Shown one piece after another: positions 30,827-38,060 of a DNA stretch of 64,000 nt (position 1 is its first letter; every line of letters begins with the position of its first letter). The DNA is from Nitrosococcus halophilus Nc 4 (GTDB lineage: Bacteria > Pseudomonadota > Gammaproteobacteria > Nitrosococcales > Nitrosococcaceae), in the NCBI RefSeq assembly GCF_000024725.1, contig NC_013960.1:558001-622000 (forward strand). The letters run 5' to 3'. The translations under genes and the position numbers were made by a program. Under the pieces are notes generated by a model. That model did no database searches. It worked only from the letters and a program-made list of their open reading frames with translations, and had not been told where the DNA came from.

Positions 30827-31602
30827 GGTCGGTGGTTCCCTCCTTCCTTCTTCCTCTGGTGGTGTTGTTCAATGTCTCCTGTAGCAATATTTCCGAAACC
30901 CGAGAGAGCAAACCACCCGCAAATGATATGCCAGGTGATGTTTCAGATCCCCTTTTCCGGTTTGAACCCCTCAGTAAGTACGGCAATCCTCCTGTTTACG
31001 AGGTCAATGGCCAGCGCTACCATACCCTTCGCAGTAGTCGCGGTTATCGGGAAAAAGGCATTGCCTCCTGGTATGGCTCTAAATTCCATGGCCGCCGCAC
31101 TTCCAGTGGCGAAACTTATGACATGTATGGGATGACCGCAGCCCATCGTAGTTTGCCTCTGCCCTCTTATGTGGTCGTGACCAATCTAAGCAACCAGCGC
31201 CAGGTGGTTTTGCGGGTCAATGATCGAGGACCGTTTCACTCCGATCGGATCATTGACCTTTCCTACGCGGCGGCGGTAAAGCTCGGTTTGGCGAGGGAAG
31301 GTACGGGTTTGGTGGAGGTGCGTGCCATCGAGCCAAGATCGGTTTCAGGCCGTAAGGGGGAGGTTGCGGAGAAAGAGATCTATCTCCAGGTCGGCGCCTT
31401 CCAGAACCGCCGCCATGCGGAGCGATTGCAAAAGCAGCTACAGTCCGTCCTTGGTACGGGGGTGAACGTCAGCCCGACAACGGCGCAGCAAGTCCCCTTC
31501 TATCGGGTGCGTGTTGGCCCTCTGCCAAACGTGGAAAAGCTTGATAATCTGGCTAAGCAACTTGCTGAGCTGGGTTACCCGGATCATATCATTGTTCACT
31601 AA
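30823..31602 (+). CDS. rlpA: RlpA septal-ring lytic transglycosylase with SPOR domain
   Basis: 259-aa RlpA. The double-psi beta barrel (about residues 78-165) contains GIASWYGSKFHGRRTSSGE and VRVNDRGPFHSDRIIDLS, including the catalytic Asp. A C-terminal SPOR domain (about 180-259, EIYLQVGAFQNRRHAERL) binds denuded glycan at the septum. The N-terminus resembles a lipoprotein signal, but the residues before the cysteine are NVS, a poor lipobox, so lipidation is uncertain. The start overlaps mltB. Confidence 0.94.
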   Translation: MRSVVPSFLLPLVVLFNVSCSNISETRESKPPANDMPGDVSDPLFRFEPLSKYGNPPVYEVNGQRYHTLRSSRGYREKGIASWYGSKFHGRRTSSGETYDMYGMTAAHRSLPLPSYVVVTNLSNQRQVVLRVNDRGPFHSDRIIDLSYAAAVKLGLAREGTGLVEVRAIEPRSVSGRKGEVAEKEIYLQVGAFQNRRHAERLQKQLQSVLGTGVNVSPTTAQQVPFYRVRVGPLPNVEKLDNLAKQLAELGYPDHIIVH

Positions 31603-31668
31603 ATTGATTGCCGCTATGCTGTAGCCCGATTGAATTTACCCTAGCTTGCTTGATATTTCTTATGGCCC

Positions 31669-32838
31669 ATGAAATCTGAGATAAAGACAATGAAATCACT
31701 TGGTTCCCTTTTCTCTTGGTATTGGCTTCTCTTGCTTTTCATGGGGGGGACTGTCTGGGGACAACCCCTGCCTATTCCGGCGGCGCCCTCACTTAGTGCT
31801 AAGGCTTATATTCTGCAGGACTTTGCAACCGGTCAAGTGCTTGCTGAGGCCCAGGCCGATCAGCGGGTTGAGCCCGCGAGTATCACCAAGTTGATGACGG
31901 CCTATGTGGTATTTGCCGAGCTCAAGCGTGGCAATATCCATCTTGAAGATAAAGTCCTCATTAGCGAAAAAGCTTGGCGTACTGGGGGGTCGCGGACCTT
32001 TATCGAGGTCGACAGCCGGGTCTCTGTAGAGACCCTTCTGCAAGGGATGATCATTCAATCAGGCAATGATGCCAGTGTGGCCCTAGCGGAATATGTGGGC
32101 GGGACCGAGGAAATTTTTGCGACCTTGATGAACCAACAAGCGCAAGCGCTGGGAATGACGGGCTCCCACTTTGTCAATAGTACAGGGTTACCCCATGAAA
32201 ATCATTATATGACAACGCGGGATATCGCGACTTTGGCAAGGGCGCTCATTCGAGATTTTCCCGAATACTACGGTTGGTATTCTGAGCAGGAATTTACTTA
32301 TAACAATATTACTCAGTATAACCGTAATGTTTTGTTAAGGCGTGATCCCAGTGTCGATGGTTGTAAGACGGGCTATACGGAAGCCGCAGGGTACTGTCTA
32401 GTCTCTTCTGCGATGCGGGAAGGGATGCGGTTGATCGCGGTAGTCATGGGAACGAAGGGCCCTAAAATTCGCGCTCGGGAGTCCTTGGCTTTGTTGAACT
32501 ATGGTTTTCGTTTTTATGACACCCGCAGCCTTTACGCGGCTAGAGAGCCTGTGACTAGTGCGCGGGTTTGGCAGGGAGCAAATAAGGAGCTGTCGCTAGG
32601 GGTGGCGGATGATCTTGCAGTGACTTTGCAGCGGGGACGTTGGCAGGAGTTATCCTCGTCAATACAGTTGCAAGATCCTATTACGGCCCCTATTACCGAA
32701 GGGCAAAGATTGGGGGTGGTGATTGTAAAACTAGGTGAGGAAGCCTTGCTTAAAAGACCGCTGGTAGCCCTAACAGCTATCCCGGAAGGGAGTTGGTGGC
32801 AACGGTTTGTTGACTGGCTGCTGTCCTTTTTTACTTAG
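31669..32838 (+). CDS. dacC: D-alanyl-D-alanine carboxypeptidase (PBP5/6 type)
   Basis: 389-aa class C PBP that trims the terminal D-Ala from stem peptides. A signal peptide (WYWLLLLFMGGTVWG) is followed by SITK (ASITKLMTAYV), SGN (QSGNDASVALAE) and KTG (DGCKTGYTEAAGY). The C-terminal WWQRFVDWLLSFF is the amphipathic membrane-anchoring helix. ATGs at 31669 and 31690 are both possible; either retains the signal peptide. It sits in the elongation cluster before the D-amino-acid transaminase. Confidence 0.94.
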   Translation: MKSEIKTMKSLGSLFSWYWLLLLFMGGTVWGQPLPIPAAPSLSAKAYILQDFATGQVLAEAQADQRVEPASITKLMTAYVVFAELKRGNIHLEDKVLISEKAWRTGGSRTFIEVDSRVSVETLLQGMIIQSGNDASVALAEYVGGTEEIFATLMNQQAQALGMTGSHFVNSTGLPHENHYMTTRDIATLARALIRDFPEYYGWYSEQEFTYNNITQYNRNVLLRRDPSVDGCKTGYTEAAGYCLVSSAMREGMRLIAVVMGTKGPKIRARESLALLNYGFRFYDTRSLYAAREPVTSARVWQGANKELSLGVADDLAVTLQRGRWQELSSSIQLQDPITAPITEGQRLGVVIVKLGEEALLKRPLVALTAIPEGSWWQRFVDWLLSFFT

Positions 32839-32845
32839 AGATACT

Positions 32846-33709
32846 TTGGCTCTCGTTTATCTCAACGGCGAGTTTTTGCCTTTAGCGCAGGCCAAGGTTT
32901 CTGTGCTAGATCGGGGATTCTTATTTGGCGACGGGGTCTATGAAGTGATCCCGGTCTATGGCGGACATTTTTTCCGTTTATCCTTGCACCTGCAGCGTCT
33001 TGAACACAGTCTTCAAGCCATCCATTTAGAAAACCCCCTCTCGCCCAGCCAGTGGCGAGAAGTCCTCCAGCGCCTAGTCGCCCGCAACGAGGGTCTGGAT
33101 CAAGCGGTTTATTTGCAGGTAACCCGGGGGCCTGCGGCGCGGGATCATGCCTTCCCGCAGCCGGTCGAACCCACAGTGTTTGCGATGAGCAATCCTCTCA
33201 AACCTTTACCGACGGAGTGGCGGTTGAAAGGGGTGGCTGCTGTGACCCGGGAAGATATTCGTTGGAAGTACTGTCACATTAAATCGGTGGCCTTGCTAGC
33301 GAATATTTTATTGCGCCAAGAGGCAATTGAGGCAGGGGCTCAAGAGGCGCTCCTGTTGCGGGATGAGCAGCTCACTGAGGGAGCGGCAAGCAATGTATTT
33401 ATCGTTCGTGGAGGAGTACTGGCGACGCCCCCCAAGGGTCCTTTTTTATTGTCTGGGATCACCCGGGATCTAATACTGGAATTAGCAGGAGAGGGCGGGA
33501 TCCCTTGCCGCGAGAGGGTGATCACTGCCTGGGATTTGACTCAAGCGGATGAGCTTTGGCTAACCAGTTCTACCCGAGAAATTGTCCCCGTGACTCGGCT
33601 CGATGGAATCGAAGTCGGCAGCGGCAAGCCTGGTCCCCTATGGGGGCAAATGGATATACTGTATCAAGAGTACAAGGCGAGGGTGCGAGCAGGTCTCTAC
33701 GAAAATTGA
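32846..33709 (+). CDS. dat: D-amino-acid aminotransferase, class IV PLP enzyme
   Basis: Fold-type IV aminotransferase of about 287 aa. It begins LVYLNGEFLPLAQAKVSVLDRGFLFGDG-like, a classic Dat/IlvE start. The PLP lysine lies in WKYCHIKSVALLAN, and EGAASNVFIV and LLSGITRD bind the cofactor phosphate. It probably interconverts D-alanine and D-glutamate for peptidoglycan. The start is a TTG at 32846 just after the dacC stop (AGAG upstream); the frame is open into dacC, but that part is not family-like. It lies between dacC and lipB. Confidence 0.88.
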   Translation: MALVYLNGEFLPLAQAKVSVLDRGFLFGDGVYEVIPVYGGHFFRLSLHLQRLEHSLQAIHLENPLSPSQWREVLQRLVARNEGLDQAVYLQVTRGPAARDHAFPQPVEPTVFAMSNPLKPLPTEWRLKGVAAVTREDIRWKYCHIKSVALLANILLRQEAIEAGAQEALLLRDEQLTEGAASNVFIVRGGVLATPPKGPFLLSGITRDLILELAGEGGIPCRERVITAWDLTQADELWLTSSTREIVPVTRLDGIEVGSGKPGPLWGQMDILYQEYKARVRAGLYEN

Positions 33710-33731
33710 AACCATAGATGAGGGGACTGCG

Positions 33732-34370
33732 GTGTCCATGGATACACTGCGGATACGGAATCTTCACCTTCAAGAGTACGGTGCCGTATGGCAGGCGATG
33801 CGGGATTTTACCGCTAGCCGTGACAGCGCCACCGTCGATGAATTATGGTGGGTGGAGCATCCTCCCGTCTTTACTTTAGGTTTGAATGGCAGAGAATGTC
33901 ATGTGCGAGAGGTGGGTGACATTCCCGTGGTGCACTGTGATCGGGGTGGCCAGGTCACTTACCATGGACCGGGGCAAGTGGTGGTCTATGCCTTGATTGA
34001 CCTGCGGCGCCGGGCTTTGGGGGTACGGCAACTGGTGGATGCGTTGGAGCTATCCGTGGTTGACTTGCTACAATCCTATGGTATCGAGGGAAGTCGCAGG
34101 ACAGAGGCCCCTGGGGTTTATGTCCAAGGCAGAAAGATTGCATCCCTGGGTCTGCGGGTGCGGGGAGGCTGTTCCTATCATGGGCTTAGCTTGAATGTCG
34201 CCATGGACTTATCACCTTTCGATTATATTGACCCCTGCGGTTACCCAGGCATGAAAGTGATTGATTTGAGGAGTTTAGGGGTGATTGTTCCGGTGGCGAC
34301 CCTCCGACGGACATTATCTCAGCATCTAGCGCGGCGGTTGGGATATCCAGCCCCGCTATATGAGGAATAA
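33732..34370 (+). CDS. lipB: Octanoyltransferase LipB
   Basis: Transfers octanoate from acyl carrier protein to lipoyl domains. RGGQVTYHGPGQ is the conserved active-site stretch, GRKIASLGLRV holds the catalytic lysine, and DPCGYPGMKV the catalytic cysteine. The start is placed at GTG 33732 (212 aa), preceded by GAGGGG; ATG 33738 is an alternative. The upstream open frame overlaps dat and is not LipB-like. No ybeD gene lies between dat and lipB. Confidence 0.95.
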   Translation: MSMDTLRIRNLHLQEYGAVWQAMRDFTASRDSATVDELWWVEHPPVFTLGLNGRECHVREVGDIPVVHCDRGGQVTYHGPGQVVVYALIDLRRRALGVRQLVDALELSVVDLLQSYGIEGSRRTEAPGVYVQGRKIASLGLRVRGGCSYHGLSLNVAMDLSPFDYIDPCGYPGMKVIDLRSLGVIVPVATLRRTLSQHLARRLGYPAPLYEE

Positions 34371-34390
34371 AATAGGATTATTAAGTAAAC

Positions 34391-34660
34391 GACCGACCTG
34401 CTAAAGCAGGTGGCTTTTTCAGACCCAACCCCAAAAGGAGCGGTCATTTATGGTAGTCAAGAGACCCCACATACGGACGGCTTACCCCCCAGGGGCGCCC
34501 GTTGCCAAGCTGATAAGCAAAGCAATCCCTCGTTATTTATTTACGCCTGTCTGGCAGGCTGGACATCGACGTGGGATACGCGCGCCAAGCCAACAGTATA
34601 CACCGCTTAATCTCGTAGTTAAAACTGACCGTCTAAAGACGGTGGTATCAACCTTTGGAA
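34391..34660 (+). ncRNA. HEARO/omega-RNA-like structured element, no nuclease gene
   Basis: The 300-bp lipB-lipA gap holds no convincing gene but a well-folded RNA-like segment. GGCTT (34479-34483) pairs with AAGCC (34587-34591), and GGCGC (34494-34498) with GCGCC (34582-34586). Inside are hairpins TTGC/GCAA (34502-34520), ATCCC/GGGAT (34525-34577) and GCCTG/CAGGC (34545-34559). The segment is framed by two similar end hairpins, ACCTGC-TAAA-GCAGGT (34396-34411) and ACCGTC-TAAA-GACGGT (34628-34643), each followed by GG. This layout and the GTTGCCAAGCTGATAAGCAA stretch resemble HEARO RNA, the guide scaffold of IscB elements in the IS200/IS605 superfamily. The name is from memory and needs a covariance search. 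Confidence 0.5.
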
Positions 34661-34670
34661 GAGTGCGATC

Positions 34671-35651
34671 ATGAATTCAAAAACGCCACCGTCTAGCGGT
34701 GAGTTAAAGCGGGATAGGGATATTCGGGCTTTGAAGGGCGCCTCTAAGGTCGCCCGGATCCCGGTGAAGGTTGAACCGACGACAGAACGCCAACGCAAAC
34801 CCCGCTGGATCCGGGCTAAGGCGCCCATAGGTTCCGAGGTCTTACGGCTTAAAGGGTTGTTGCGCGAGCATGAGCTTCATACTGTTTGCGAGGAAGCCTC
34901 TTGCCCTAATCTTGGGGAGTGCTTCGGCCACGGCACGGCGACTTTCCTGATCATGGGTAATATTTGTACCCGCCGTTGTCCCTTTTGCGATGTGGCCCAT
35001 GGGCGGCCAGATCCCCTCGATGCTGGGGAACCCATGCATTTGGCTCAAGCCGTCCGCGCCATGGGGCTTCGTCATGTGGTGGTGACATCGGTGGATCGGG
35101 ATGATTTGCGTGATGGGGGCGCTGCCCATTTTGCACGCTGTATTCAGGCGCTTCGCACCCAGTCGCCCCAGACTTGCATTGAAGTCTTGGTGCCGGATTT
35201 TCGGGGACGCATGGATCGGGCTTTGGAGGCATTGGCAGTGGCGCCCCCCGATATTTTTAACCACAATTTGGAGACGATACCCCGTCTCTACAAGGCCGTC
35301 CGCCCCGGTGCCGATTACCAGTGGTCTTTGCGCTTGCTAGAACGTTTCAAGGAGGGACATTCCGCTGTGCCGACCAAATCAGGTTTGATGCTTGGCCTGG
35401 GAGAAGAGTTAGCAGAAGTGGAGCAAGTCATGAGGGATCTGCGTGATCATGGTTGCGATATGCTCACCCTAGGCCAGTACCTGCAACCCAGCCTCCATCA
35501 TTTGCCGGTGAAGCGCTTCGTTACCCCGGCGGAGTTTGATGCGTTAGGGGAGAAAGCCCGCGCCATGGGGTTTTCCCATGTGGCCAGTGGCCCCATGGTC
35601 CGCTCTTCTTATCATGCCGATCGTCAAGCTGCCGGTGAAGCCATTACCTAG
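34671..35651 (+). CDS. lipA: Lipoyl synthase
   Basis: 326-aa radical-SAM enzyme that inserts two sulfurs into octanoyl groups. The auxiliary cluster cysteines are in [12 protein letters not shown], the radical-SAM CxxxCxxC in CTRRCPFC, and the C-terminal [11 protein letters not shown] supplies the conserved serine ligand. The N-terminus carries about 40 extra polar residues before the core. It is separated from lipB by a structured repeat instead of the usual short gap. Confidence 0.97.
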
Positions 35652-35835
35652 CGTTAAGCTTCTCCTCAGAAAGCGATCTGTTTTCTGCTATCATTACTTT
35701 TAAATTTGAGGTATCTCACGCCCTGCCAGTGGGAGGCGGTTTCTATTTTTATTTGCCTAGTTATCAGGGGCTATCCTGGATGGATTTACCGCCACGGCAT
35801 TGGGGATATGTAGATACTAAGGTGAGGAGGCCTAC

Positions 35836-36996
35836 ATGAGTGAATATCTGCCCGGTCTCGAAGGGGTTCCGGCGACCCGGTCCAATATCTCAGAGGTTGA
35901 TGGTGAGCACGGCATACTGACCTATCGGGGTTACCCTATTGAAGATTTGGCCGAGCGTAGCACCTTTGAAGAGACGGTTTTGCTGTTGTTAGACGGGGAA
36001 TTGCCTACAGCTCAGCGCCTTGAAGAGTTTACCCAGGAATTACGGCAAAATTATCGGGTAAAGTACAATATCCGGACCCTGATGACGGCATTGCCGAGTA
36101 CCGGGTCTCCGATGGAGATGCTACAGGCGGGTGTTTCTGCGCTGGGCATGTTCTATCCGGGGAATGAATGCTTAACGGGTTCTGCTTCTTGCACTGATCG
36201 CAATTACGTCGATAACATGACGGTCAAGATCATTGCCCGCATGCCTGCCTTAGTGGCGATGTGGGAGCATATCCGCAACGGCTATGACCCGGTTCCTCCT
36301 CGCCCCGATCTGCCCATTGCCCAGAATCTGTTATACATGTTCCATGGTGAAGAGCCGGATCCGTTGATGGCAAAGATCATGGATACCTGCTTAATACTCC
36401 ACGCCGAGCACACTATCAATGCCTCGACTTTTGCGACTTTAGTGGCCGGTTCCACCTTAGCCAGCCCCTATGCGGTGATTTCTGGTGCCATTGGGACCCT
36501 GTCGGGCCCCTTACATGGAGGGGCCAATGAACGGGTGGTAGAGATGCTGCGGGAAATTGGCCGCCCCGAGAAGGTAAAATCATGGCTCGACGAGAGACTC
36601 GCCCATAAGCAAAAAATTTGGGGATTTGGTCATCGGGTCTATAAAACCAAGGATCCCCGGGCTAAAATCCTGCAAAAATTGATGGAGCGATTACCAGCCG
36701 AACGGGGCGGTCAGCTCAGCCCGTTATTCGAAACGGCCCTCGCCTTAGAAGAGGCGGCCACGGAACGGTTGGGCCATAAGGGCATTTATGCCAACGTAGA
36801 TTTTTACTCAGGCATTCTTTACAGGGAATTAGGGATACCTACAGACCAATTTACGCCCTTATTTGCCGTCTCTCGCTCAGGGGGTTGGTTGGCCCACTGG
36901 CGGGAGCAACTCTCCGATAACCGCATTTTCCGGCCTACTCAAGTGTATGTGGGCAGTCCCCTGCGGCATTATGTTCCGTTGAACGAACGGGGTTAG
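35836..36996 (+). CDS. gltA: Citrate synthase
   Basis: 386-aa citrate synthase that condenses oxaloacetate and acetyl-CoA. GPLHGGANERV, GFGHRVYKTKDPRAK and the late DFYSGILYRELGIP give the catalytic His, His and Asp. The length and the MSEYLPGLEGVPATRSNISEVDG-type start fit the short dimeric form rather than the hexameric enterobacterial enzyme. An SD (GTGAGGAGG) lies upstream. The 184 bases before it hold no gene that I can see. Confidence 0.96.
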   Translation: MSEYLPGLEGVPATRSNISEVDGEHGILTYRGYPIEDLAERSTFEETVLLLLDGELPTAQRLEEFTQELRQNYRVKYNIRTLMTALPSTGSPMEMLQAGVSALGMFYPGNECLTGSASCTDRNYVDNMTVKIIARMPALVAMWEHIRNGYDPVPPRPDLPIAQNLLYMFHGEEPDPLMAKIMDTCLILHAEHTINASTFATLVAGSTLASPYAVISGAIGTLSGPLHGGANERVVEMLREIGRPEKVKSWLDERLAHKQKIWGFGHRVYKTKDPRAKILQKLMERLPAERGGQLSPLFETALALEEAATERLGHKGIYANVDFYSGILYRELGIPTDQFTPLFAVSRSGGWLAHWREQLSDNRIFRPTQVYVGSPLRHYVPLNERG

Positions 36997-37007
36997 CGGT
37001 TGCGCTC

Positions 37008-37049
37008 TCCTAGAAACGGTAGCCGAGCGCTTAACTGCCGTTTCTAGGA
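37008..37049. repeat. Inverted-repeat hairpin, same family as 5982-6209
   Basis: TCCTAGAAACGG (37008-37019) and its exact reverse complement (37038-37049) flank an 18-base loop. It is a compact copy of the repeat whose arms bound the element before tldD. Lying between the convergent gltA and epmB genes, it may also serve as a bidirectional terminator. Confidence 0.75.
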
Positions 37050-38060
37050 TTATCCTTCCAGGGGCAACTTGCTGGGCGCGCCTGCCAGCTCTTGCACCAG
37101 CAGGGGCACTAAGTAGCCGGGCAAGCGGGCGCGCAGTGTTCGGTGCAGGCATTGGGCGGTGGGAGTATCCACTTCAAAATGGGCGGCTCCCTGGACTCTG
37201 TCCAATAGGTGGAGGTAATAGGGGATGACGCCTGCATCGAACAAGCTTTCGCTCAAATCACACAGAGCACTCACCCTATCATTAATCCCCCGTAACAGCA
37301 CCGTCTGATTGAAGAGACGGCATCCGGCGCGGGAAAGCCCCTCAAGCGCCTCGCCTACCCTATCATCAAGCTCGTTAGCGTGATTGGCATGGATAACCAC
37401 CACTTTTTGCAGGGAGGTATGCTCAAGCCACTGGAGCAAGTGGCTATCGACTCGCTCTGGCAATACCACTGGCAAGCGGGTGTGGATGCGCAGCCGCTTG
37501 ACATGGGAAATGGCGGCCAGGGCCTGGACCAGTTCGGTTAAGCGGTTATCAGTAAGGGTTAAGGGGTCGCCGCCGCTCAAAATCACCTCCTGAGTGCTTG
37601 GGTTCTGGGCAATATATTGTAGTGCTTGCTGCCACTGGCTTGGAGCAGGGTTATGGTCGGCATAGGGAAAATGGCGGCGAAAGCAATAGCGGCAGTGAAT
37701 GGCACAGGCCCCCGTGGTGACCAGAAGCACTCTTCCGGCGTATTTTTGCAGGACTCCAGGGGCGGGCATGGCGGCCAAGTCGCCGACAGGATCGGCGCTA
37801 AAACCGGGCGAAATTTGATCTTCGGCAATCAAGGGAAAAACTTGCCGGAAGAGTGGGTCGTTAGGATCCCCCTTTTTCATGCGGGCGATGTAACCGCGGG
37901 GCACTCGGAGGGGAAATTGCCGACGGGTGGCTTCGCCGGCAAGTTGCGGATGATGATTTAAACCTATGAGAGCAAGCAATTCTTGTGGATTGCGGACAGC
38001 CCGGGCAAGTTCCGTTTGCCAAGCTGGCCTCTGTAGAGGAGGAGGTGATTGGGTTATCAT
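37050..38060 (-). CDS. epmB: EF-P (R)-beta-lysine modification: lysine 2,3-aminomutase
   Basis: 336-aa radical-SAM enzyme (YjeK/EpmB) that converts L-lysine to (R)-beta-lysine for attachment to EF-P. The radical-SAM cysteines are in CAIHCRYCFRRHFPY, followed by EVILSGGDPLTL and RLRIHTRLPVVLPERV, typical of the aminomutase family. The short length and lack of a long C-terminal domain separate EpmB from clostridial enzymes. It is divergent from efp, 59 bases away. Confidence 0.95.
   Translation of the reverse strand: MITQSPPPLQRPAWQTELARAVRNPQELLALIGLNHHPQLAGEATRRQFPLRVPRGYIARMKKGDPNDPLFRQVFPLIAEDQISPGFSADPVGDLAAMPAPGVLQKYAGRVLLVTTGACAIHCRYCFRRHFPYADHNPAPSQWQQALQYIAQNPSTQEVILSGGDPLTLTDNRLTELVQALAAISHVKRLRIHTRLPVVLPERVDSHLLQWLEHTSLQKVVVIHANHANELDDRVGEALEGLSRAGCRLFNQTVLLRGINDRVSALCDLSESLFDAGVIPYYLHLLDRVQGAAHFEVDTPTAQCLHRTLRARLPGYLVPLLVQELAGAPSKLPLEG

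Follow-up and report, generated by a model that had tools for sequence, protein, structure and literature searches.

A transposase-less IS200/IS605-type element, probably a PATE, between lipB and lipA of Nitrosococcus halophilus

What kind of DNA parts lipB from lipA in Nitrosococcus halophilus Nc 4? In the window, by which we mean the whole 64-kb stretch of DNA analysed here, an open frame on the plus strand (33603..34370) contains lipB, whose true start probably lies inside the frame, and is followed by a gene (34671..35651, plus strand) that we take, from its sequence, to be lipA, encoding lipoyl synthase. The first-pass annotation had read the intervening DNA as a stand-alone guide RNA of the HEARO/omega-RNA type that may depend on an IscB in trans and splits a normally tight lip operon. 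The split itself is borne out: 300 nt separate the lipA ATG from the end of lipB (stop at 34370), where three congeners have a short gap. The structured DNA in this gap is very probably a non-autonomous derivative of the IS200/IS605 transposons, that is, a palindrome-associated transposable element (PATE).

Extent, copies and empty sites

Copy boundaries, together with the empty sites of congeners, place the whole element at 34385..34670 on the minus strand (286 bp). One base of doubt attaches to its left boundary (34384 or 34385): an A at this position is common to six element copies, while the empty sites agree better with its absence. The structure originally reported for 34391-34660 is present there, but that span falls a few bases short of the element. 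As described at first, both end hairpins are exact on the plus strand, with ACCTGC-TAAA-GCAGGT at 34396-34411 and ACCGTC-TAAA-GACGGT at 34628-34643. The 64-kb window holds 27 perfect 6/4/6 hairpins, and the two with a TAAA or TTTA loop are the end hairpins of the element; when the element was shuffled with its dinucleotides preserved, at least two perfect 6/4/6 hairpins arose in 4 of 2000 shuffles. The element thus has near-terminal palindromes without terminal inverted repeats, a feature by which PATEs are recognised. Another is that they are too short for a transposase, and here the 286 bp hold no transposase-length frame, the longest ATG frame being 74 aa with no Pfam match.

The window occupies C2:558001-622000 of the 4.15-Mb host genome (G000). 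Searching this genome with a 299-base query at E <= 1 returned seven matches, the query itself among them. The others are another two near-full copies (99% and 96% identity), a partial copy of 153 bases (97%; locus L004) and, at E 0.577, three short matches, so that the genome holds three near-full copies, the window copy included, and one partial copy. In the congener G003 there is one full copy and one truncated at its right end, the latter in the same place as the host copy L002 and with the same transporter genes adjoining; no copies were found in the congeners G001 and G002. Among 95 relatives, element DNA was matched in three genomes, one of which (G093) gave a 22-nt match alone. A relaxed hairpin pattern with at most one mismatch, run on the four genomes of the genus with the backward pattern as control, found fewer matches than the control (13 vs 36 in G000, 6 of the 13 being known copies) and one exact match in G001 (C1:572373), and we claim no further divergent copies from it. 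No parent was found in genome_contigs with the pattern AGTAAACGACNNACCNNCTAAAGNNGGT (0 matches).

The gap between lipB and lipA is empty of the element in all three congeners. Where the window reads GGATTATTAA, element, ATGAAT, G003 reads GGATTAGTAG-ATGAAT, and the site without the element in G001 and G002 is GGATGATTAA-ATGAGC. Likewise, the site of the copy L003 is without the element in G003, G001 and G002, and the copy L070, found in G003 only, has an empty counterpart in G000. At these three insertions with empty sites there is no target duplication. The flank is constant: ATGAA stands directly 3' of all four complete right ends in the plus-strand reading, which is TTCAT at all four left ends in the minus-strand reading. 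At the lip site this target pentanucleotide (34671..34675, minus strand) holds the lipA start codon, and the empty lip site has ATGAA in G003 and ATGAG in G001 and G002. Insertion 3' of a fixed tetra- or pentanucleotide that is not duplicated is again a PATE feature. The complete right ends of L002 and L070 were not seen at the start of any listed ORF.

Two of the tests proposed with the first-pass annotation, namely that other copies should occur in the genome and that the gap sequence should not be a conserved lipA leader in relatives, came out in its favour, since further copies were found and the sequence is absent from congeners. What these two observations show is mobility, not a guide-RNA function.

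The copy at L003 (1501-1793) has a 6-base insertion in its right hairpin, which keeps the phase of the inner frame and would enlarge the loop, and it lies about 35 bases past the point where a decayed tnpB element apparently has its right end (L003 1415-1500; TnpB match C2:339110-339262). Another long palindromic repeat, CTGGAGCGAGCCGGTG ... CACCAGCTCGCTCC, occurs in L004 at about 1900-2070, with a similar one in the tail of L013, and is apparently a separate family.

Relatives of the two ends

The element is oriented with its transposase left end at 34670 on the minus strand, by homology to the left end of tnpA-bearing elements. In a search of 369 genomes sampled from the class (E <= 1e-4, at most two candidates scored per genome), which is a weak test of absence elsewhere, matches were found in two genomes, the host itself and G365. 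In G365, two loci match the element end near 34670 (88% over 43 nt), and at one of these, L116, the matching end lies just upstream of a contig-cut tnpA frame of 62 aa, read on the opposite strand. This 62-aa piece matched 167 plasmid records, annotated as IS200/IS605 TnpAs, of which six were examined (H1, H2, H3, H6, H7 and H11). In five of the six, tnpA is annotated without a neighbouring tnpB, as far as the incomplete gene tables show, and H11 (L124) has no tnpA annotated. A left end composed of GGTTRAAACCACCG and the hairpin is common to all six records, which have the same TnpA group. The element DNA as such had no match among plasmids.

Five relatives were matched by the element in blastn (3e-9 for L116, 6e-8 for L122, 4e-7 for L119, 2e-4 for L120 and 4e-4 for L121), in every case on the left end. 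Local alignment of the left end against relatives scored 22-34, with a largest shuffle maximum of 14. The left-end subterminal hairpin (34628..34643, minus strand, ACCGTC-TTTA-GACGGT in that reading) is homologous to that of IS200-type left ends: all 42 cells are paired in seven aligned sequences, one pair is changed on both sides in four of the seven, and the covariation score was reached by 1 of 500 shuffles. On these comparisons, the element end at 34670 is clearly an IS200-type left end. The placement in the IS200/IS605 superfamily made at first, with no protein gene of that family, is therefore very probably right, given this left-end homology to tnpA elements.

The other end, on the 34385 side, weakly suggests a counterpart, through an IS200-type right-end layout only. 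Its subterminal hairpin (34396..34411, minus strand, ACCTGC-TTTA-GCAGGT in that reading) shows no significant similarity: 86.7% of the hairpin cells are paired in five sequences, and the covariation was reached by 54 of 500 column shuffles. Local scores of 13-16 against relatives compare with shuffle maxima of 11-15, and G365 regions that lack a right end also gave 13; in blastn the right end had no match to relatives except one of E 0.17 to a left-end hairpin. The kinship of ends with IS200/IS605 transposons by which PATEs are also recognised was thus found at the left end. Between the ends, the 155-nt internal core (34445..34599), which folds on either strand, scored 9-10 against IS200-type relatives, at the level of shuffles, and had no relative in the sequences searched. 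As this core cannot be recognised as the remains of a tnpA element, a simple internal deletion is not established as its origin. The left flank is TTCAT in the Azotobacter and Methylomagnum relatives, where the boundary is inferred, and is not TTCAT at the likely boundary in the Pseudomonas, Vibrio and G365 relatives.

Because the left end is similar, with a compensated stem, to that of IS200-type tnpA elements, the end hairpins are most likely recognition hairpins for TnpA. A trans-acting Y1 HUH transposase of this type would bind to both subterminal hairpins on the minus strand of the window, cut out this strand and insert it 3' of TTCAT, leaving the target unduplicated. The closest matches to the TnpA group of the relatives are 38% identical in the host genome and 41% in the genus, with no close TnpA partner found in the genus, and so the TnpA that presumably mobilised the element may by now have been lost from the host.

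The 22-nt match in G093 (L071, about 1500-1525) is a lone identical hairpin followed by GGTTGT, between atpC-like and ParM-like genes. It looks like either a terminator or the right end of an IS200-type element, and no tnpA was seen at this locus among ORFs of at least 80 aa.

RNA, protein and leader readings

Both strands of the element fold. The plus strand is only a little more stable than expected by chance (z -1.85, matched by 6 of 200 shuffles), and its minimum-energy fold contains what had been pointed out at first, the helices GGCTT/AAGCC and GGCGC/GCGCC, nested and enclosing two arms. The minus strand (34385-34674) folds better, with none of 200 dinucleotide shuffles as good (z -2.56). 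No gene or RNA family is known on this better-folding strand.

The minus-strand fold is one reason to consider a TnpB-type omega RNA (reRNA), read from the minus strand with its guide in the left flank of the window and served by a TnpB of the genome. Right ends of TnpB elements have a hairpin-with-TTTA layout, and the minus-strand right end of the window element has the same; one tnpB element of the genome (L053-L055) ends in a comparable hairpin, and genome-wide there are 17 TnpA, 46 TnpB and 14 HEARO matches, none of them inside the window. Yet blastn at E <= 1 found no match of the element to 47 of these loci (17 TnpA and 30 of the 46 TnpB), although the positive control worked, and the five plasmid relatives with tnpA point away from tnpB, as far as their incomplete gene tables go. 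The base pairs also speak against it. Among five copies (the partial L004 left out), changes to minus-fold pairs comprised 7 one-sided changes that kept the pair and 10 that broke it, with 0 compensated, and in the plus fold 1 was kept, 5 were broken and 0 compensated. The copies thus appear to give no sign of a selected RNA, in a covariation test that is weak because they are so alike. We regard the TnpB-guided reading as improbable.

Very improbable, in our judgement, is a mobile cassette whose selected content is a protein of 74 aa. The frame in question (34450..34674, plus strand) has a TGA stop that overlaps the lipA ATG as ATGA, and is preceded by a Shine-Dalgarno sequence, AAAAGGAG (34433-34440), that ends 9 nt before its ATG and was rated good; an ATG frame as long arose in 30 of 2000 shuffles. 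It is whole in three of the five copies that span it (the window, L002 and L070). In the other two, however, it is broken, by a stop codon in L003 and a frameshift in L073, and the partial L004 ends earlier. Moreover, the frame belongs to no Pfam family and has no relative in genome_contigs, viral_contigs, plasmids or phages.

The stand-alone HEARO/IscB omega RNA proposed at first, transcribed from the plus strand with a guide in the left flank and an IscB in trans, now seems scarcely credible. HEARO elements habitually sit 5' of ATGA, and all four complete right ends of the element lie 5' of this motif. In the genome, RF02033 was detected at 12 places at E <= 1.4e-5 (L008-L019, all outside the window), one of which (L008) exceeds the Rfam cut-off, and at two more at E 0.48 and 1.99. 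Long frames adjoin L008 (458 aa) and L011 (427 aa), which by their motifs we take to be iscB, while a short frame (99 aa) lies at L009, and L008 also has ATGA shortly past its frame. Nevertheless, the cmscan check against HEARO (RF02033) that had been proposed for the locus went against the guide RNA: the whole window gave 0 matches at Rfam gathering thresholds, and at E <= 10 the region 34250-34750 gave three (E 2.6, 9.5 and 9.7), none of them HEARO, although the positive control recovered HEARO at three of three other loci of the genome (118, 61.8 and 35.9 bits). On this result the HEARO/IscB RNA was rejected. The plus-fold pair changes given above are against it as well, and one end of the element has its counterpart in IS200-type tnpA elements, at their left ends, and not in a guide scaffold. 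Fourteen ORFs of 80 aa or more lie at 31000-38000, and inspection of these revealed no iscB-like frame.

Finally, a cis-regulatory leader of lipA, whether riboswitch or attenuator, is hardly to be believed even though the element lies directly upstream of lipA and the hairpin at 34396-34411, followed by GGCTTTTTCA, is terminator-like on the plus strand, for the element is absent upstream of lipA in three of three congeners, the ground on which this reading was rejected, its copies sit at unrelated sites, and Rfam gave no match at gathering scores and chance-level ones alone at E <= 10.

We consider it very probable that the element is a PATE. The one point of further interest is how lipA can still be expressed when the insertion has separated its ATG from its Shine-Dalgarno sequence. 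The element stands directly 5' of the lipA ATG, and both at lipA (AGGA) and at the L003 gene (GGAG) it sits between the likely old Shine-Dalgarno sequence and the ATG. Read on the opposite strand, TTCAT becomes ATGAA, which could plausibly start a gene, and so the element can land between the two. Its inner Shine-Dalgarno sequence and open frame may keep lipA translated, the stop of that frame being completed by the ATGA of the target. One could go further and suppose a start-codon-seeking miniature element, whose landing in fixed orientation, with a Shine-Dalgarno sequence and frame of its own, re-couples translation of the gene it interrupts; if so, insertion before an important gene such as lipA would be harmless by design of the element. 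We consider this unlikely. On the plus strand, the hairpin and GGCTTTTTCA (34396-34420) score as terminator-like, and the insertion may for that reason attenuate read-through from lipB into lipA.

A candidate orphan guide RNA is thereby replaced by a well-supported small parasite of IS200 type with defined boundaries, orientation, target and empty sites. More generally, paired CTAAAG/CTTTAG hairpins around a segment of a few hundred bases can be ends recognised by a transposase, and ends of the IS200/IS605 type alone do not imply a guide RNA.

Comparison with known systems

HEARO/IscB elements belong to the IS200/IS605 superfamily. The window element shares with them this superfamily and the ATGA on its right, and differs in having no match to the covariance model (RF02033), no adjacent long frame of the iscB kind, and other ends and core. 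With IS200-type tnpA elements such as those of WP_153448263.1 (Vibrio algicola plasmid) and WP_040107288.1 (Azotobacter plasmid) it has the same left-end hairpin and flanks and a right-end layout that is weakly similar; those elements carry tnpA, whereas the window element is without it, and the cores are unrelated.

Among elements without a transposase, a PATE-like, ends-only IS605 element of Halanaerobium hydrogeniformans is of a kind described as movable by a trans-acting transposase (PMC7290912). Like the window element, it is an IS200/IS605 derivative that lacks a transposase (PMC7290912). It differs in that its right end is complete and 58 nt of tnpB are retained, whereas the core of the window element matches no transposon gene found.

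The PATEs of Haloquadratum walsbyi have near-terminal palindromes resembling those of IS605-type transposons and no terminal inverted repeats, cause no target duplication, are too short for a transposase, and in some families occur as near-identical copies (PMC3119063). The window element differs in its bacterial host and its few copies, and, unlike those PATEs, its end has gammaproteobacterial IS200-type tnpA elements as relatives. It agrees with them in its palindromic ends, the absence of inverted repeats and of target duplication, and the lack of a transposase. On the features tested, therefore, the window element falls among the PATEs, with a right end that is weakly matched. Strain-specific insertions of H. 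walsbyi PATEs are reported even though one strain has only pseudogenes for its IS200-type transposases (PMC3119063), a situation that resembles the want of a close TnpA for the window element.
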